A stretch of DNA of 64,000 bases from an uncultured Burkholderiaceae bacterium. GTDB taxonomy: Bacteria; Pseudomonadota; Gammaproteobacteria; Burkholderiales; Burkholderiaceae. The stretch lies in assembly GCA_937871985.1 (NCBI GenBank), contig CALMPB010000385.1:1-64000 (forward strand). Reading direction: 5' to 3'. Below, piece after piece: positions 15,364 through 60,512 of this stretch; position 1 is the first letter of the stretch, and every line of letters starts with the position of its first letter. Under the pieces are notes generated by a model that was not told the origin of the DNA, did no database searches, and saw only the letters and a list, made by a program, of their open reading frames with translations. Both the position numbers and the translations under genes were made by a program.

Positions 15364-15395
15364 AAAAAAATGCGGCCACGTGGCCGCATTTTTTT
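15364..15395. terminator. Perfect palindromic bidirectional terminator
   Basis: A7 TGCGGCCA CG TGGCCGCA T7 forms a perfect 32-bp palindrome at 15364-15395. It has A- and U-tracts on both sides, so it can end the fds transcript on the plus strand and the uspA transcript on the minus strand, whose stop codon begins only four nt away. It is the clearest intrinsic terminator in the window. Confidence 0.93.
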
Positions 15396-48438: not shown

Positions 48439-49395
48439 TCAATGCATCGCCGCGTCGTGCGCGGAGGCCGGTTTCATCGAGCCATGATGCATGGTGTCCG
48501 AGGCCATCATGTGATCCATGCACATCTGGCCGGGATCGACGCAACGGTTGAGAATGCGCTGGTAAAGATCGGAGCCGAAATGGGCATAGTAGTGTATGGG
48601 TTCAGCCCGGGTCGGCTGCTTAAGCTGGTTGTAAGCCGTGCGATCCAGGGTTTGCCCGCTGGCGCGAACCTTCTCCACCCACTGGCTGAAATCCTGCTGA
48701 CTCATGCCATGGAAGACGAAGCGCATGTCGGTAAAGCCCGCCCCGCTGTAGTTGGCCGAAAAGCCCTTGTATTCGCCCGGCTTGTTGATGACGCCGTGCA
48801 GGACGGTTTGCATGCCCGGCATGACATAGACCTGACCGGCCAGGGTCGGCACGAAGAACGAGTCCATCATCGTGTCGGAGGTAAGCTTGAAGTGGATGGG
48901 CACGTCGACCGGCGCCGCCAGCTCGTTGACGGTGGCGATGCCGTAGTCGGGATAGAAAAACAGCCACTTCCATTGCAGCGAAACCACTTCCACTTCCAGA
49001 GGCTTCAGGTCGGCCGGCACGGGCTTTTCGTGGGAGATTTTGTCGAGCGGACGGTAGGGATCGAGTTGATGGGTTCCGGTCCAGCTGACCGCGCCCACCG
49101 CAATGATGATCAGCAGGGGAACCGCCCACACCACCAGTTCGAGCTGCGGAGAGTGATCCCACTTGGCATCGTAGTGCGCGTGTTTGTTCGAGGAGCGATA
49201 CCGCCAGGCGATGATGGCAATGGCAATGAGTACCGGCACTATGATGAGCGCCATGATGAGAGTGGTGCTGACCATGGTGCCGCTTTGCTGGAGCGCTACG
49301 TAGCCGTCGGGATTGAGCAACACTAACTTTTCGCAGCCCCCCAGCATGAGCATGATGGGAAGAAGCAGAAACCGACAAAAATGTTTCACCAGCAT
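48439..49395 (-). CDS. cyoA: Cytochrome bo(3) ubiquinol oxidase subunit II CyoA
   Basis: CyoA is the membrane-anchored subunit II of the quinol oxidase. The 318-residue protein has a lipoprotein signal ([20 protein letters not shown]), two helices and a periplasmic cupredoxin domain with [20 protein letters not shown] but no CuA cysteines, as expected for a quinol oxidase. The His/Met-rich tail ([20 protein letters not shown]) is an extension relative to E. coli. It starts the cyoABCD-surf1 operon; no cyoE (haem O synthase) is in the window. Confidence 0.95.
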
Positions 49396-49501
49396 GGTAG
49401 AAAACCTGCGACGAATAGAGAAAACCCGTTTATTTTATAGTAATCTTAAAGGCAGTCTCGCAACTTTTTTTGATTTGGCGAGTTTTTTCTTCGGAGACAC
49501 C

Positions 49502-50830
49502 ATGTCTACCAACCCCGCGCAACCCGCCACTCCAAACGGCTTCGCACCATCCGGCCCCACTCACGCACAACACCTCAAGCCCAGCGACATCTCCGTCGGC
49601 GTCGTAGTCGGCCGCACCGCCAGCTTCTTCGACGTCTTCGTGTTCGGCATCGCCTGCGCGCTGGTGTTCCCGAAAGTGTTTTTCCCCTTCGCCAGCCAGG
49701 CAGACGGCATGTTCTATTCCTTTGCGATATTCGCTTTGGGATTTCTTGCGCAGCCATTGGGCTCGCTGCTGTTCGTGCCCATACAGCGGCGTTTCGGGCG
49801 CACCACCACGCTGACCATCGCCTTGTTCGTGCTGGGTTCGGCCACGGTGGGCGTCGCCTTCCTGCCAGGCTATGAGTCCCTCGGCTACGCGTCGATCGCG
49901 GCGCTGTGCGTTCTGCGCCTGGGCCAGGGCTTTGCCGTGGGCGGCAGTTGGGACGGCCTGGCCTCCCTGCTCGCCATCAAAGCCCCCCCCAACAGCCGCG
50001 GCTGGTATGCATCGATTCCCCAACTGGGCGCTCCCATCGGCTTCATCGTCGCGGCCGGCCTGTTCGCGTATTTGTGGTCCAGCCTTTCGTATGAAGAGTT
50101 CTACAGCTGGGGATGGCGCTATCCGTTCTTCACGGCCTTCGCCGTCAATGTGGTGGCTTTGTTCGCCCGCCTGCGCATCGTCGTCAGTCCCGAATACACA
50201 TCCGAATTCAAGCAGCGCGACCTCGCGCCCGCCTTGGTGGGCGGGCTGCTGCGCTCGCAAGGCAGATACGTAGCATTGGGCGCTTTCGCGCCGCTGGCCA
50301 GCTACGCCCTGCTCAACCTCGTCACACTCTTCACGCTTTCGTGGGCCTTGCTGTACACCCGGCAATCTCCGACTCACTTTCTTATGGTGCAAATCATCGG
50401 CGCGCTGGTGGCCATTCCCTGCATGCTGGTGTCGGGGCGCATCGCCGACCGCCTGGGGCGGCGTCTTACGCTGGGCCTGTTCGCCATTCTCATTGCCGTC
50501 TACAGTGGATGGACAGCCGTTCTGCTGTCGGGCAGCGACTTCGAAAGCTATCTCTTCATCATCATCGGATTCGCCCTGCTGGGCTTCTCGCATGCCCAAT
50601 CCTCGGGCGTGGTCACTGCCAGCTTCCGCCGCGAATTCCGCTATACCGGCGCTCACTTCTCCGCCGATCTCAGCTCGTTGCTGGGCGCCGGCTTCGCTCC
50701 GCTGGTGGCCCTGATGCTGGCCGCCTACCTGGGCGTGGGCTATGTGGGCCTGTACCTTCTTTCGGGGGCAACCTGCACCCTGGCGGCGCTGTGGATCAGC
50801 CGTAAACTGGGCGGCTTGCCCAATCACTGA
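49502..50830 (+). CDS. MFS transporter, metabolite:H+ symporter type
   Basis: The 442-residue membrane protein has the metabolite-H+ symporter architecture: ISVGVVVGRTASFFDVFVFG, QPLGSLLFVPIQRRFGRTTT and RLGQGFAVGGSWDGLASLLA. About 12 helices are seen; the substrate may be an organic acid. The start is ATG 49502 with GGAG 6 nt upstream (CGGAGACACC). It is divergent from cyoA and is followed 60 nt later by the TetR gene, which may control it. Confidence 0.9.
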   Translation: MSTNPAQPATPNGFAPSGPTHAQHLKPSDISVGVVVGRTASFFDVFVFGIACALVFPKVFFPFASQADGMFYSFAIFALGFLAQPLGSLLFVPIQRRFGRTTTLTIALFVLGSATVGVAFLPGYESLGYASIAALCVLRLGQGFAVGGSWDGLASLLAIKAPPNSRGWYASIPQLGAPIGFIVAAGLFAYLWSSLSYEEFYSWGWRYPFFTAFAVNVVALFARLRIVVSPEYTSEFKQRDLAPALVGGLLRSQGRYVALGAFAPLASYALLNLVTLFTLSWALLYTRQSPTHFLMVQIIGALVAIPCMLVSGRIADRLGRRLTLGLFAILIAVYSGWTAVLLSGSDFESYLFIIIGFALLGFSHAQSSGVVTASFRREFRYTGAHFSADLSSLLGAGFAPLVALMLAAYLGVGYVGLYLLSGATCTLAALWISRKLGGLPNH

Positions 50831-50890
50831 CCATGAATGGCGCTGGCGTGCCAGATGGCGCGCCAGCGGACCGGCCAGAAAACCAATCCC

Positions 50891-51595
50891 ATGTCTCCCC
50901 CCAGTCCGCCAAAAAAAACCGCCGTCAAAGCTACACGCCGCAACGCCGGACGTCCTTCCGAAAGCAACTCTGTCGGCCGCGAATCGATTCTGGCTTCCGC
51001 CATTGCGCTACTGCATGGCAAAACGCCCGAACAGCTTACGCTGGCGGAGGTTGCCGCCAACGCCAAAGTCGATCGGGCATTGATACGATATTATTTTTCC
51101 GATAAAACCGGCTTGCTCAAAGCCATTGCCTATCAGGTGGTCAGCGAGCTTCAAGGCCGAAGCCAGGCCATGTTTCATCAAGAAGGCACGCTGGAAGAAA
51201 AAATAAAAAAGCGCCTGGATCTCTTGATCGACATCATGCACGAAATGCCGCAGTTCGCGCAGTTGGTATTCAAGGAAATCTACTACGCCGAAATCGCCGC
51301 GAAAAACGGCGACGAGGCGCGCGCGAGCATATCGCAAAACATTGTCGACCGGGGGCTGGCCCTGACCAGAGTACTGATCGACTCCGCCGAAGTGGATGAC
51401 GTCGGCCGCGAAATGGATCCACGCTTCCTGCACATCATGATGCTTGGATCCTGCATATTCTTTGCGACCTCGCAGCCCTTGCTGCAACTGATGTTCGGCG
51501 ACGAGCTCGACCGCAGCGAACTGACGAGGCGCTACATAGATTTCGCCACGAAAATATTGATGCGCGGCCTGGGCGCGCCTTTGCCTGCGGCTTAG
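50891..51595 (+). CDS. TetR family transcriptional regulator
   Basis: The 234-residue protein has a TetR HTH at about 30-80 (GRESILASAIALLHGKTPEQ and LTLAEVAANAKVDRALIRYY, FSDKTGLLKAIAY) and a helical ligand-binding C-terminus. I chose ATG 50891 (MSPPSPPKKTAVK); an upstream ATG at 50837 in frame is an alternative. It lies 60 nt after the MFS gene and converges with the Rieske oxygenase, whose stop is 5 nt away. It may bind the palindrome at 54149, since TetR operators are palindromic; this is inferred only. Confidence 0.88.
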   Translation: MSPPSPPKKTAVKATRRNAGRPSESNSVGRESILASAIALLHGKTPEQLTLAEVAANAKVDRALIRYYFSDKTGLLKAIAYQVVSELQGRSQAMFHQEGTLEEKIKKRLDLLIDIMHEMPQFAQLVFKEIYYAEIAAKNGDEARASISQNIVDRGLALTRVLIDSAEVDDVGREMDPRFLHIMMLGSCIFFATSQPLLQLMFGDELDRSELTRRYIDFATKILMRGLGAPLPAA

Positions 51596-51600
51596 AGCCT

Positions 51601-52647
51601 TTAAGCGCTCAGCGACTCTTTGGCGCGTTCGGCATTTTGTACCTGCGCCAACGCGGCCTGCTCCATCACGCGCCGCACCCGCATCAGGCCCGCGTCGTGC
51701 TGATACAGGTTTTCCTTGCTGCGCGCATTCTGCACCATGGTTTCCAGAATGAGGCGATCCTGCTCCACCACATCCCAATGCAGCCCCTCCAGGCGGTTGC
51801 GGTACAAAAACCGCCAGATATTGCGGTCGAGCCCCTGCGCTTTCTTGATGCGCCAAAAATAAACCTGGCAGCGGCGCTCATCGACGGGCGTGGCAAAGCC
51901 GACGATAAAGAATTCGCCGCCCCCATATTTTTTCTGGTACGGCACGGCCAGGCGCAGCCACAGGCTGGCGGTCTGGCCGAATTCCACCCAGTCGAAATTG
52001 ACGCCGCGCTGGCCGGTCTTTTCAAACAGCAAGCCGGTTTCCGTGGGCTTGATGACCATTTCGGCGCGCTTGTCGCCCTCGGCCATGGAATGCGACGACG
52101 CGTGCAAATACCGGCCATGCATAAGATCCATGACATTGTCGATGGCGTAGCGGTAATTGCATTCCCAGTTCTGCATGCACAAGAAGCCGGAAAATTCGTC
52201 GCCGGTCATTTCCCGCGGAAGCTCGAACGGCGTAACCGGCGTCCCCGCATCATCGCCAAACCACAGGAAAATGGCGCCGTTGGACTCGACGGCGGGGTAG
52301 GACTTGATACACTGCCGACCCCTTAGCGAACACCTGTCCATGGCGGGTACATCCGCCACAACGCCCATGCCGTTGATTTCCACGCCGTGATACCAGCATG
52401 CGATGCGCTCGCCCAGGTTCCAGCCCAGGGACAGCCTGGCCCCCCGGTGCGGGCAGCGGTCTTCGGTGGCGTGGATGCTGCCGTCTTTATCGCGCCAAAC
52501 CACGATTTCCTCGGAAAGCCGTGTAATGCCGATGGGCGTGTCGGAAACCATATAACTGGGCGCAACGGGATACCAGAAATTGCGAAGGCCCTTTTCCACC
52601 AATGCGGCAGCCTGAGCTGCTGCATCGATTGCCGTGTCTGTATTCAT
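51601..52647 (-). CDS. Rieske non-haem iron oxygenase, alpha subunit type
   Basis: The 348-residue protein has a Rieske domain with C65-x-H67 (DRCPHRGA) and C84-x2-H87 (ACWYHGVE), and a catalytic domain with the mononuclear iron motif NVMDLMHGRYLH (His177, His182, bridging Asp174). It resembles oxygenases that demethylate or hydroxylate aromatic or phenolic acids. No reductase or ferredoxin gene is adjacent. The start is ATG 52647. It lies 45 nt before the binding-protein gene end, on the same strand, and may be cotranscribed with it. Confidence 0.93.
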   Translation of the reverse strand: MNTDTAIDAAAQAAALVEKGLRNFWYPVAPSYMVSDTPIGITRLSEEIVVWRDKDGSIHATEDRCPHRGARLSLGWNLGERIACWYHGVEINGMGVVADVPAMDRCSLRGRQCIKSYPAVESNGAIFLWFGDDAGTPVTPFELPREMTGDEFSGFLCMQNWECNYRYAIDNVMDLMHGRYLHASSHSMAEGDKRAEMVIKPTETGLLFEKTGQRGVNFDWVEFGQTASLWLRLAVPYQKKYGGGEFFIVGFATPVDERRCQVYFWRIKKAQGLDRNIWRFLYRNRLEGLHWDVVEQDRLILETMVQNARSKENLYQHDAGLMRVRRVMEQAALAQVQNAERAKESLSA

Positions 52648-52692
52648 TTGAATCTACCTGCCTGAAAAATAGTGCTCAATAGTGGCCGTCAA

Positions 52693-53679
52693 TCATTTGG
52701 CCGGAATGAACTCGTTGGTGTACAAATCGTTCAGCGGCGTTGCCTTGGGCACGATGCCCTCTTTGACGTAGAAGTCCTGCAAGGCGCCCAGACGCTTCGA
52801 ATCGATTTCGCCGAGCCGGCTTTGGCCGGTGTACACCAGCTTGTTGTAGAGCTTGAAAACGCGCAGGACGTAATCTTCCTTGCCTTGATAGGCGGGAATG
52901 GCCTTGACGTAGTCAGCGGCCGCCGATGCGGGATCCTGGACAATGTCCCGCAGCCCTTTCAATGTGGCACGGACGAAACCGCGTACCAGCGCGGGATTTT
53001 CCTTGATGGTCTTGTCCGAAACCAGGATGGCCTGGGCCATGCTTTTGAAGTATTTGTCGGCGGGGATGATGTCTACCTTCACGCCCGCCAGTTCGGCGTT
53101 GATGGTCCATTCCGGAATCGAGGCCAGCGCGGGAATCTTCTTGTCGGCGAACAGCTTCCACACGGAAGGGCCGGTCGCCTGGATGTCGACGTCCGATTTT
53201 TCCAGGCCGTTGGCTTTCAGCATGCCCAGCAGCGCGTAATACGTGGTGTCCGAATAGGACATGGCCCCAATGGTTTTTCCTTTCAGTTGCGCCACGGACT
53301 GAACACCCGAGTCCTTGTTGATGGCCAGGTGCATGAACGAAGAACCGCCCAATACCGCAACCTCTTTGATGGGTATGCCGTTGGCCCTGACGATGATCGG
53401 CGTATCGCCCACCCCGCCGCCAAAGGGCGCGTTACCCGCGCCCACCTGCTTGGCCACGTCGGCGCCGCCCTTGGCCATGATGAAGTTGACGTCCAGGCCT
53501 TCGGCAGCGTAATAGCCGCGCTGCTTGGCCAGCATCCAGGGTGCGAAGGCAGGCAGGCTGGAAGGCGCCGGCAACAGATAGGTGACCTTTTGCAGATCGG
53601 CCGCCTGCGCCGAGGCCGCGGCCAATGTCAGGGTTAAACCGGCAAAAACCATACAGAAGCGCGTGGCGAATGTGTTCAT
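52693..53679 (-). CDS. NitT/TauT-type ABC substrate-binding protein
   Basis: The 328-residue periplasmic protein has a signal peptide (MNTFATRFCMVFAGLTLTLA, cleavage after AQA near 26) and the NMT1/THI5-like fold (SSLPAFAPWMLAKQRGYYAA, GLDVNFIMAKGGADVAKQV, ADKYFKSMAQAILVSDKT). The family binds sulfonates, nitrate, pyrimidine or aromatic acids. No ABC permease or ATPase gene is adjacent, so it is an orphan. Its neighbour is the Rieske oxygenase, which suggests that it binds an aromatic or heterocyclic acid. The start is ATG 53679 with GGAG 8 nt upstream. Confidence 0.9.
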   Translation of the reverse strand: MNTFATRFCMVFAGLTLTLAAASAQAADLQKVTYLLPAPSSLPAFAPWMLAKQRGYYAAEGLDVNFIMAKGGADVAKQVGAGNAPFGGGVGDTPIIVRANGIPIKEVAVLGGSSFMHLAINKDSGVQSVAQLKGKTIGAMSYSDTTYYALLGMLKANGLEKSDVDIQATGPSVWKLFADKKIPALASIPEWTINAELAGVKVDIIPADKYFKSMAQAILVSDKTIKENPALVRGFVRATLKGLRDIVQDPASAAADYVKAIPAYQGKEDYVLRVFKLYNKLVYTGQSRLGEIDSKRLGALQDFYVKEGIVPKATPLNDLYTNEFIPAK

Positions 53680-53817
53680 GAGGCTTGCTCCAAAAAGAAT
53701 GTGTGCGGGTTGGGACTGATGTGCTGGAACTGTTGTTCCGTTTGACTGGCTTGTGTATTCATGGCTGGGTTGTACGCTCGTTCGCGGCCGAACCAACCGG
53801 ACAACCGGTACGGCCAG

Positions 53818-54120
53818 CTAATAGCCAAGGATGGTCATTTCCGATTCGAAAAGCGCCACGGTCCAGGCATGGCCGTCCCGCGTCTTGAAATGCTGCGCGT
53901 TGAGGCCATCGACGATTTCCTCCGCGGTTTTCGCCCCGGTCTCGTATGCCTTCTCCAGAGCGTCGGCCAGTTCATTCTCGTACTGCGAAGGCGCGCAGTT
54001 GCGGGTCTGCCAGCGCAGGTTTTCGGCCTTGCCGGGAATTTCAATATAGCCAGTGCCTGCAACACGCTGCGGCGGCAGGTCTTTCCACTTATGGAGGTTG
54101 GGATTGAAGCTATGTGACAT
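53818..54120 (-). CDS. Small protein with recombinase-like HTH segment
   Basis: The 100-residue protein ends with AEEIVDGLNAQHFKTRDGHA followed by WTVALFESEMTILGY, a block like the recombinase DNA-binding domain of serine integrases (IA..LN..G..T..G..W...). No catalytic domain is present. Such small proteins are seen beside Rieske oxygenase genes in some proteobacteria; their role is unknown. It is transcribed in the same direction as the SBP and Rieske genes, 138 nt upstream, with a perfect palindrome 29 nt before its start. It may be part of the oxygenase or its regulation. Confidence 0.75.
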   Translation of the reverse strand: MSHSFNPNLHKWKDLPPQRVAGTGYIEIPGKAENLRWQTRNCAPSQYENELADALEKAYETGAKTAEEIVDGLNAQHFKTRDGHAWTVALFESEMTILGY

Positions 54121-54148
54121 GGAAGGTTCCTGAATATCGGATAATCTT

Positions 54149-54170
54149 TAATTCCCATATATGGGAATTA
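54149..54170. promoter_or_regulatory. Perfect 22-bp palindrome, candidate operator
   Basis: TAATTCCCATA (54149-54159) is followed by its exact inverse TATGGGAATTA (54160-54170), without a spacer. It lies 29 nt upstream of the small HTH gene and overlaps its expected promoter. The adjacent TetR protein and the HTH protein are candidates to bind it. The core TCCCATATATGGGA recalls the repeats at 32860-32885. Confidence 0.7.
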
Positions 54171-54372
54171 GGTGTATTCTATTCACGTCCAATAGTCCAC
54201 GTCAAGAAAAAACCCAAGGCTAGGTATAAGCACCTAGAACACCGAAGAAACCGGCAAGTATCGAGCTTCAGCAGTGCCGTCAAGCATGGGCCGGAACGCA
54301 CCACATCGTCTTGCTGTCAATTAAACTTGTGATGTCATCGCGCCAGACCAGCGCACCGTTTTCAGATTCGGG

Positions 54373-57071: not shown

Positions 57072-60000
57072 ATGCCCACGGTTACCCCTTCCACCCTTGG
57101 CCTGGCTTCGCAAGCCTCGTCCAAGCAATCCACTTCCCGCTTCTCAATTCCAACTACCTCCCGCTCTTCCAAAACCCTTGCTCACACAGACCGGCACTGG
57201 AAGCTGGCAGCCTGCACGCTGGCCGTGCTGGGGGTGCTGTCTCAGCCGGTTTGGGCTATGCCCCCTGCAGGATCAGGCGGAAGCGGCGGAACAACTAGTC
57301 AGGTTGGTGCGGGTGATCCAGGCGCCGATGGCACAACCTATGATGGAGGTAGTGGCGGTGGCGCTGGATCAACCGGGGGCAATGGTGGATCGGCGACCGA
57401 CAATAGTGGGGGACGAGGAGGATTGTCCAGTGGCAATACTAGCGTCAATGGTGAGTCTGGCGCCACAAGCATTATCGGCGGGGGCAGCGGCGGAGGCGGC
57501 GGTGCACACGGATCGCTCGTTGTATCCACCAGCACCAACAACTCTGTCATCACCGGAGGCGCCGGTGGAAATGGCGGCGCCGGCGACCTCAGCGGAGGCG
57601 GTGGTGGTGGCGGCGGTGCTGGCGGCTACGGGGTCGTGGTCAATGGATCCAACCTATCGTATACCAACAGCGACACTATCACGGGAGGCGCAGGTGGCTC
57701 CGGAGGGAATGGTGGGACCTACGGCAACGGCGGCAGCGGCGGCAGCGGTGGCGTCGGTGTCTATTTCACAGGCTCAGGCACACTGATCAATAGCAGTGGC
57801 GCCACTATCACTGGCGGTGCTGGAGGTATGGCCGGCTCAGGCGAGGACGCAGGAACGGATGGCGCGGGTGGCATAGGCATCGTCGGTTCGAATTTAACCA
57901 TCATCAACGCCGGCACAATCACTGGAGGCGCGTCTGGCGAAGACCAGGCCGCAGCCATCCTGTTCACAGGCGGCGCCAACTCGCTCGAACTCCAGGCAGG
58001 ATCCAGCATCAGCGGGGTGGTGGATGCCACAGCCGGTGCCCACGACACATTGATTCTGGGCGGAACAGGCACTGACACTTTTAATGTTTCGCAGATCGGT
58101 GATGGGAGTAGCTACCAGGGTTTCGAAGCTTTCGAAAAAACAGGCACGGGCACCTGGTCGTTGGGCGGCTCTACCTCGGCGGTCACGCCCTGGATATTGT
58201 CCGGCGGTACCCTCTCCATCGGAGAGGACTACGCCTTGGGCGACGCCTCGGGCGGCTTGACGTTCAATGGCGGCACGCTGGAAGTGACCTATCGGCTCGC
58301 CAGCAGCCGCGCGATCACCCTTGCGGGCGCGGGCACCATCAAGAACAGCAGCACCAGCATGTCCGGCGTCGTGCTCAACGGCGCCATATCGGGGCCGGGC
58401 AGCCTGACGCTCACCGGCACGGGCGTGGGCCCCGTGAAACTGAACCACGCCAACACCTACGAAGGCGGCACAAACGTCTATACCGACGTGGACGTGACCA
58501 CGACCGGCGCCTTGGGCACCGGCGCGGTCGTCGTGCAAGGCGGCATGCTCGGCGGCGACACCAACCCCATCCTGACTTTCCAGAACTATGCCAGCGCCGG
58601 CGCCCTGTCCATCCGCAACAGCCAGAGCGGCGTCACGACGTTCGAGCACGGTTCAACGGCCGGCAGCGCCACCATCACCAATGCGGCGGGCGGCGCCACC
58701 AGCTTTATCGACGACGCCAGCGCCGGCAGCGCGACCATCAACAACCAGTCCGGCGGCATACTGGCGATGGCCGACCAGGGCACCGCGGCGGGGGCGACCG
58801 TGGTCAACGCCGCCGGGGGAACCGTGGACATCAGTCACGTCGCGACCAGCACCAGCATCGGTTCGCTGTCCGGGGCCGGCAACGTCTTCCTGGGCGGCAA
58901 GGCCCTGACACTCGGCGCCTTGGGCAACAACGACACCATCGACGGCGTGATCGCCGACGGCGGCGATGCCGGCGGCACGGGCGGCAGCCTGATCAAGGCC
59001 GGCGCAGGTCTCCTGATTCTGAACGGCGTGAACACCTACACGGGCGGCACCACGGTCAATGCCGGGACGCTGGAGGTGGGCGACGCCAACCATGCGTCGG
59101 CCAGCATCCAGGGCGGCGTGCAGGTCAACGCCGGCGGCACGCTGCGCGGCCACGGCACGGTGAACGGCGATGTCACGAATACCGGCATCGTCTGGCCCGG
59201 CGGCTCCATCGGCACGCTGACGATCAGCGGCAATTACACGCAGTCGCCCAGCGGCATACTGCAACTGGAAGTCAGCCCGACCGAAGCCTCGCAACTGAAG
59301 GTGGGCGGCACTGCCACGCTGGCCGGCACGCTGAGCCTGCTGTATGCCCCCGGCACGTACAGCAATGTCAGCTACACTTTGTTGAGCGCCTCAGCGGTCA
59401 ACGGCAGCTTCTCGACCGTCACGAGCAATGCGCCCGAGGGCGTCTCGCCGATTCTGAGCAATGGCGCCGATGTACTGAACCTGAGCATCACCGGCTCGGC
59501 CCCCGTGGTGGTAGCCCCGACGCAGGCAACGATCTTCGGGGCGATGGGCGCCTCGGCCCTGCGCGCCGGACAAGCCGCCAACGAAGTCCTGCTGGGCCGG
59601 CTGGCGGGGCCTTGCGCGGCGGCCAACGGATCGGCGGGCACCGCCAACGCGTCGAATGGCCACGTCTCCTCGTCCTGCCCAGGTCAGGACAAAGGCCTGT
59701 GGATCCAGGCCCAAGGCACCGACACCCGCATTGACGGCAACCACGGCGCGCCCGACGTGCGCGACCAGCACTACGGCTTCCTCACCGGGTTCGACCGCGC
59801 CTGGCGCGGCATGACCGTCGGCCTGGCCGGCGGCTACAGCCATGGCGAGATCAGCGAGTCGGGCAACGGCTCGCGCGGCACGCTCGATACCCTGCGCATC
59901 GCCGGCTACGGCGCCAAGCACCTCGGCCCCTACACCCTGGCCGCCACCCTGGGCTATGCCTACGACTTCGCCTCCACCACCCGCTCGTTCGGCGCGCTGG

Positions 60001-60512
60001 GCTCGGCCCGCGGCGACGGCCATGGCCAGGAATTCAGCGCTGGCCTGCAGGCCAGCCGCGCCTGGCAACTCAGCCCCGCCGCCACGCTCACCCCGCGGAT
60101 CGGCCTGCGCTACGCCTACCTGGACGGCCTAAGCACGAACGAGTCCGGCCCCACCGCGCAGAACCTGGGCGTGGGCAACCAACACCTGCAAAGCCTGCAG
60201 CCCTATGTGGGGCTGACGCTGGACTACGCGTTCACGCTGGCCCACAGCGCCCGGCCCGCCAGCGTGCAACTGCGCGCCGGCTACGCCTACGAAACGCTGA
60301 GCACCGGCCGCAACGTCTCGGTCACCGCCGCCGACGGCACGGGCTTCACCATTGCCGGCACCCGCGATTCACGCGGCCAGCTCACGGCGGGCCTGGGCGC
60401 CACCCTGCCCCTCGGCAAATCAACCCGCGCCTACCTGCGCTACGACGCCTGGCTGCACACCGGCAACGTCTCGGCACAGGCCCTGCAGGCCGGCGTCGAT
60501 TACCGGTTCTGA
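57072..60512 (+). CDS. Autotransporter with Gly-rich (PGRS-like) passenger
   Basis: The 1146-residue type Va protein has a long signal peptide (KLAACTLAVLGVLSQPVWA, cleavage near 62) and a very Gly-rich region at about 63-290. There ITGGAGG or ITGGAS recurs at residues 160, 203, 246 and 283 (period 43, 43 and 37). A beta-helical part (300-870) contains passenger-associated repeats such as NGVNTYTGGTTVNAGTLEVG. A 12-stranded beta-barrel (about 874-1146) ends DYRF. The passenger lacks serine-protease or RGD motifs that I can see. The Gly-rich 5' part has lower GC and different base use than the 3' part. It is likely a surface adhesin or biofilm protein. ATG 57072 follows AAGGAAAC. Confidence 0.9.
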   Translation: MPTVTPSTLGLASQASSKQSTSRFSIPTTSRSSKTLAHTDRHWKLAACTLAVLGVLSQPVWAMPPAGSGGSGGTTSQVGAGDPGADGTTYDGGSGGGAGSTGGNGGSATDNSGGRGGLSSGNTSVNGESGATSIIGGGSGGGGGAHGSLVVSTSTNNSVITGGAGGNGGAGDLSGGGGGGGGAGGYGVVVNGSNLSYTNSDTITGGAGGSGGNGGTYGNGGSGGSGGVGVYFTGSGTLINSSGATITGGAGGMAGSGEDAGTDGAGGIGIVGSNLTIINAGTITGGASGEDQAAAILFTGGANSLELQAGSSISGVVDATAGAHDTLILGGTGTDTFNVSQIGDGSSYQGFEAFEKTGTGTWSLGGSTSAVTPWILSGGTLSIGEDYALGDASGGLTFNGGTLEVTYRLASSRAITLAGAGTIKNSSTSMSGVVLNGAISGPGSLTLTGTGVGPVKLNHANTYEGGTNVYTDVDVTTTGALGTGAVVVQGGMLGGDTNPILTFQNYASAGALSIRNSQSGVTTFEHGSTAGSATITNAAGGATSFIDDASAGSATINNQSGGILAMADQGTAAGATVVNAAGGTVDISHVATSTSIGSLSGAGNVFLGGKALTLGALGNNDTIDGVIADGGDAGGTGGSLIKAGAGLLILNGVNTYTGGTTVNAGTLEVGDANHASASIQGGVQVNAGGTLRGHGTVNGDVTNTGIVWPGGSIGTLTISGNYTQSPSGILQLEVSPTEASQLKVGGTATLAGTLSLLYAPGTYSNVSYTLLSASAVNGSFSTVTSNAPEGVSPILSNGADVLNLSITGSAPVVVAPTQATIFGAMGASALRAGQAANEVLLGRLAGPCAAANGSAGTANASNGHVSSSCPGQDKGLWIQAQGTDTRIDGNHGAPDVRDQHYGFLTGFDRAWRGMTVGLAGGYSHGEISESGNGSRGTLDTLRIAGYGAKHLGPYTLAATLGYAYDFASTTRSFGALGSARGDGHGQEFSAGLQASRAWQLSPAATLTPRIGLRYAYLDGLSTNESGPTAQNLGVGNQHLQSLQPYVGLTLDYAFTLAHSARPASVQLRAGYAYETLSTGRNVSVTAADGTGFTIAGTRDSRGQLTAGLGATLPLGKSTRAYLRYDAWLHTGNVSAQALQAGVDYRF

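Follow-up and report, generated by a model that had tools for sequence, protein, structure and literature searches.

The 64,000-nucleotide stretch of DNA analysed here (the window; positions 1 to 64,000 of contig CALMPB010000385.1, GenBank assembly GCA_937871985.1, from an uncultured Burkholderiaceae bacterium) encodes a Rieske non-heme iron oxygenase and, before it on the same strand, a 100-residue protein that resembles the helix-turn-helix (HTH) domain of recombinases. What does such a protein do beside an oxygenase? An earlier note on this DNA had described a Rieske alpha subunit, a binding protein and the small HTH protein in one direction behind a palindrome, with a convergent tetR gene, and all of these parts are present and oriented as described. 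The order behind the palindrome, on the minus strand, is HTH protein, binding protein and Rieske alpha. The note also implied a DNA-binding role for the small protein. On the basis of linkage, charge and conservation we propose instead, with a probability of roughly 0.6, that this protein, a member of family PF20552 (HTH_62), is a dedicated protein partner, or accessory subunit, for oxygenases of a single Rieske clade and not a DNA-binding regulator.

Two-way linkage of HTH_62 and one Rieske clade

Relatives were collected from plasmid records and genomes, with HTH_62 found by profile, giving 60 loci including the window. Downstream of all 61 strong HTH_62 genes at these loci, and on the same strand, lies a Rieske alpha gene similar to that of the window (at least 254 bits); near-identical locus pairs are included (for example L110/L112, L114/L115 and L118/L119), so that these counts are of places and not of independent events. 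The pairs occur across alpha-, beta- and gammaproteobacterial records and are also present at two loci outside the set (L022 and L025). The co-occurrence of small-protein homologues with Rieske oxygenases, on which the earlier note had made its proposal depend, thus holds for every strong match. Where the two genes are adjacent they are separated by −4 to 61 nt, taking the likeliest start codons (alternative ATGs change the spacing at L003, L089, L102, L107 and L111). In non-adjacent pairs the intervening genes encode the binding protein, ATP-binding cassette (ABC) components or, at one locus, other functions over ∼4.8 kb.

The linkage also holds in the opposite direction. Among 268 genomes of one family, HTH_62 scores above its cut-off at 33 places in 24 genomes, and the window Rieske finds matches at E≤1e-60 at 34 places in the identical 24 genomes, 33 of which pair one-to-one with an upstream HTH_62 gene. 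The unpaired gene (G322:C12; L127:6917-7819) is truncated: it is 78% identical, but its alignment starts at about residue 73, the cluster motif has lost its first Cys-His pair and the gene looks decayed by its sequence. No HTH_62 was found near it. Among 289 genomes of another class, HTH_62 occurs at 57 bits or more at 14 places in 12 genomes. Rieske matches at E≤1e-50 likewise number 14, fall in these 12 genomes and on the same contigs, and are all paired. These two Rieske counts rest on the best candidates, at most seven, of each genome, whereas every candidate was scored in a set of 14 genomes, which gave 227 Rieske matches at E≤1e-10. The top 20 of these (40–78% identity) are the HTH_62-linked ones, counting G007:C210, which adjoins only an HTH_62 fragment at a contig end (28 bits, outside the 61). 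The next-ranked gene (G007:C5), intact and 38% identical, is without HTH_62, the score then dropping from 210 to 109 bits, and none of the 207 Rieske-domain matches below the top 20 has one. In the genomes searched, HTH_62 therefore stands upstream of every intact Rieske gene that matches the full-length window protein at 40% identity or more. This two-way linkage (61/61; 33/34; 14/14) gives strong support to the earlier suggestion of a joint action of the small protein and the oxygenase. At the boundary Rieske gene of 38% identity (L159:3934-5321), a 91-residue LigA-like (PF07746) open reading frame (ORF) overlaps the 3′ end in place of HTH_62; it may encode a further small helical protein that accompanies a Rieske oxygenase.

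The two proteins also vary in step. Their pairwise distances correlate with r=0.80 over 59 pairs, compared with a maximum of 0.12 in 999 permutations. Since shared ancestry alone yields part of this correlation, it supports joint inheritance and does not prove contact. The distance and charge counts of 59 omit L101 and L106, which lie at contig ends; for L093 and L094 the distance count used the last 85 residues and the charge count the untrimmed open frames.

Joint inheritance could reflect no more than a compact catabolic block, with HTH_62 serving the same pathway in some other metabolic capacity. The genes do belong to catabolic operons that also encode SDR, cupin and hydrolase proteins and transporters. 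However, seven other gene types vary while HTH_62 stays with the oxygenase across the three proteobacterial classes, and we consider this explanation very improbable. Homologues of the neighbouring genes near the 60 loci, some of which end at contig ends, number 44 for IclR, 32 for the binding protein, 30 for SDR, 27 for the ABC ATPase, 25 for the permease and nine each for TetR and Rieske ferredoxin; HTH_62 is the most constant companion of the oxygenase among the neighbours counted. At L002 and L003 (Acinetobacter and Klebsiella records) the pair lies within a longer catabolic cluster encoding a ferredoxin, SDR, VOC, flavin adenine dinucleotide (FAD) oxidoreductase, cupin and hydrolase, with an additional aspartate dehydrogenase gene in L002.

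A transient factor for assembly or maturation (cluster insertion, folding or trimerisation), produced together with its cognate oxygenase and absent from the finished enzyme, would fit the tight pairing and short spacing equally well, and the lack of HTH_62 beside the truncated Rieske gene of L127 suits a helper that has no use once its client is lost. Two observations make this unlikely in our view. Nine genomes of the 268-genome family hold two clade oxygenases, each with its own HTH_62, and keeping one copy per oxygenase is unusual for a general factor; the 207 other Rieske-domain matches of the 14 genomes manage without HTH_62.

Charge, conservation and predicted fold of HTH_62

Residues 12–100 of the window protein align to positions 3–72 of the PF20552 profile with 83 bits against a curated cut-off of 27, which makes it a family member. 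The family name implies DNA binding, although the strong matches found here are acidic, stand as separate proteins and keep to one Rieske clade. The description of the protein as a recombinase-like HTH without a catalytic domain was accurate: the 100-residue ORF contains HTH_62 alone, without a resolvase catalytic domain, and so is not a serine recombinase. It shares with the C-terminal HTH of serine recombinases the pattern LN...G..W.

The net charge is negative in all 59 HTH_62 proteins measured (median isoelectric point 4.7; the highest, 5.5, is that of the window protein), and the HTH part has a median net charge of −7 (range −10 to −2). As a property of sequence, this is not a basic DNA-contacting domain. 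For comparison, 14 weak profile matches (22–32 bits by Pfam; G257 from the 268-genome set and 13 from the 289-genome set) were set aside as controls, three of which (G688, G614 and G644) are just over the Pfam cut-off. The 14 rows represent 13 distinct ORFs, L074 and L084 giving the same one, so that the G644 match at 517–687 lies outside the measurements. Seven of the 13 carry a Resolvase domain by Pfam, two share their open frame with a methyltransferase and four are of unknown kind. No Rieske gene was found in the flanks of the 14 loci, those of the seven resolvases included, within the at most ∼1.5 kb available. By net charge, ten rows are positive, one is zero and three are negative; the matched segments of the seven resolvases run from 0 to +5, six being positive and one neutral, in contrast to −10 to −2 in the HTH part of the strong matches.

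Two aspects of these controls qualify this contrast. HTH_62-like weak matches without a Rieske gene exist, and they include two acidic small ORFs (−3 and −5) whose kind is unknown, so that acidity alone does not define a Rieske partner. Small weak-HTH_62 ORFs at L074, L083 and L086, which have no resolvase domain and no Rieske gene in their flanks, perhaps represent a separate branch of this fold that has another partner.

The acidic weak matches also slightly raise the odds of a DNA-binding operon regulator that reads the palindrome. Such a regulator would agree with the Pfam label of recombinase-like HTH, with a weak resemblance in structure to sigma region 4 and to AhrC, and with the position of HTH_62 as first gene behind the window palindrome. 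Searches of solved folds with HTH_62 returned weak HTH-like matches only. The uniformly acidic proteins (59/59), as opposed to the mostly positive resolvase segments, and the presence of an IclR or TetR homologue near 49 of the 60 pairs argue against it. The surrounding regulators vary while HTH_62 stays, and the palindrome goes with TetR, as described below; the implied DNA-binding role is therefore one that we do not retain and regard as distinctly unlikely.

Structure prediction for the window protein gives three confident helices (residues 46–60, 66–75 and 88–99) and no strand. With neither a predicted NTF2-like beta-sheet nor a match to a beta-subunit family, it does not look like a Rieske beta subunit. 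The N-terminal tail (first 40 residues) has a mean predicted local distance difference test score of 56–60, compared with 89–97 for the helical part, and a linked-pair prediction of HTH_62 with the oxygenase (predicted template modelling score 0.77) leaves it without defined structure. Nevertheless the tail is conserved: Q38 is invariant, R40 and P44 are nearly invariant, and N6, L9 and G22 are conserved wherever the long form exists. Alignment A2 excludes L093, L094, L101, L106, L112, L115, L119, L125 and L126, and alignment A3 additionally L001–L005. A conserved tail that is predicted not to fold alone suggests a binding partner.

The oxygenase, its electron donors and related enzymes

The window contains a single Rieske motif. 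The cluster motif of the oxygenase, C-x-H...C-x-x-H, lies at 52455, and the protein combines it with a 2-His-1-carboxylate iron site, as judged by the PF00355 and VanA_C matches and the motif. HGRYLH and EQDR are present in its sequence and are presumably the iron-binding motifs, as in other members of the family. The solved relative closest by sequence is dicamba O-demethylase (3gb4).

The earlier note had found no ferredoxin or reductase. This was borne out for the proteins that were sought: tblastn of the 64-kb window with four Rieske ferredoxins and two FAD oxidoreductases of the relatives, as well as two ABC ATPases and two permeases, gave zero matches, other kinds of reductase not being covered. 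The nine pairs with a Rieske ferredoxin homologue nearby have its gene before HTH_62 in eight cases and after the Rieske gene in one (L096).

We propose that the tail (N6, L9, G22, then Q38, R40 and P44) and the helical domain of HTH_62 would bind the oxygenase. Because the ferredoxin gene, where present nearby, immediately precedes HTH_62 at eight of nine loci, the role of HTH_62 as partner is probably in assembling the oxygenase or in aiding the docking of ferredoxin. More tentatively, the clade may represent a third Rieske architecture beside the alpha-only and alpha-beta types, in which alpha depends on a small subunit, acidic and helical and derived by remodelling of a recombinase HTH domain, whose conserved tail would thread onto the oxygenase and gate ferredoxin docking and electron entry; this goes considerably further, and we think it possible rather than probable.

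The oxygenase shares the Rieske domain, VanA_C and a length of ∼350 residues with alpha-only oxygenases of the VanA/DdmC type, from which its clade differs by carrying HTH_62. To our knowledge, alpha-only Rieske enzymes have been described without a small subunit. The alpha3beta3 oxygenases are alike in that a catalytic alpha subunit has a small, co-encoded, non-catalytic partner, as in IadD/IadE (PMC10374108); HTH_62 differs in being predicted all-helical, with no strand. The genes themselves are already known and the obligate pairing appears to be the new element: it was not reported among the literature matches listed, coverage of which is thin for subscription journals.

Rieske oxygenases serve in pollutant breakdown and biocatalysis, and their active expression can be hard. 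If our reading is true, this clade needs a partner of 70–100 residues that is labelled recombinase-like, and expression of the oxygenase without it could fail for a hidden reason. HTH_62 would, moreover, clearly exemplify the conversion of a DNA-binding fold into part of an enzyme, and would be an unrecognised component of a well-studied enzyme family.

Palindrome, TetR and other features of the window

The features of the locus are collected in Table 1. As stated earlier, the palindrome is perfect and spacerless, but it lies 28 nt, not 29 nt, from the ATG of the first gene. Perfect 22-mer palindromes are expected 0.026 times in 64 kb from base composition. The only other one in the window (15369–15390), by a universal-stress-like gene as judged by eye, has a run of A on one side and of T on the other; it was rejected as an operator since these flanks make a terminator likely.

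Table 1. Genes and sequence elements around the HTH_62–Rieske pair of the window
Feature	Position	Strand	Basis
MFS metabolite:H+ symporter, directly before tetR	49313..50830	+	TIGR00883 2A0106, E 5.2e-70, under curated cut-off
TetR-family regulator, likely palindrome reader	50837..51595	+	PF00440; 8 loci have an orthologue immediately upstream of HTH_62
Rieske non-heme iron oxygenase alpha, VanA/DdmC-like, 348 aa	51601..52647	-	PF00355, E 2.7e-21; VanA_C, E 1.5e-16
NitT/TauT-type periplasmic binding protein (NMT1), 328 aa	52693..53679	-	PF09084, E 3.9e-39; likeliest start, ATG 53679, chosen by eye
HTH_62 small protein, 100 aa	53818..54120	-	PF20552, E 1.6e-23
Perfect 22-bp palindrome, candidate TetR operator	54149..54170	.	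core recurs at TetR-linked loci
-10-like element TAGAAT	54176..54181	-	by eye; matching layout in relatives, also by eye
-35-like element TTGACG, 18-nt spacer to -10-like element	54200..54205	-	by eye; matching layout in relatives, also by eye

The palindrome closely follows the promoter-like pair, again by eye. The tetR gene does converge on the Rieske gene, as had been noted, and its product has a TetR_N domain, so that the operon combines a linked regulator of this type with a promoter palindrome that is conserved. A TetR orthologue is encoded directly upstream of HTH_62 in eight relatives, divergently in L006 and L007 and on the same strand in L009–L011 and L087–L089. The sequence ATTCC[C/T]A-N4-T[A/G]GGAAT occurs just past the −10-like box in eight of the nine TetR-linked loci, the window included, with a one-base variant there in L007; the exact core was absent from the first 39 loci, other loci not having been searched for variants. 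The TetR recognition helix reads KVDRAL in the window, L006 and L007, which have CCC sites, and GVDPAL in L009–L011 and L087–L089, which have CCT sites. This joint difference between operator and helix, in two groups only, suggests that it is TetR that reads the palindrome. L089 has two palindromes upstream of HTH_62, the second with one CCC arm (mixed CCC/CCT). TetR would likely repress the operon from the palindrome and release it when a substrate or product appears, and operator and regulator would thus offer a regulatory handle on the same operon.

The binding protein had been called an orphan. No ATPase or permease was found at the window or at its nearest relatives (L006–L011, L087 and L088), which likewise have the binding protein gene alone between HTH_62 and Rieske. 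In other relatives a similar NMT1 protein is encoded together with an ABC ATPase and a permease, so that the binding protein of the window looks like a retained piece. It may capture the substrate or product in question, or be what remains of an ABC transporter that has been lost. No binding protein was found between HTH_62 and Rieske in L089. The symporter encoded before tetR is possibly an uptake route. Further along the window, at 57072–60512, a glycine-rich ORF of 1146 residues has a C-terminal end that resembles an autotransporter barrel by eye.
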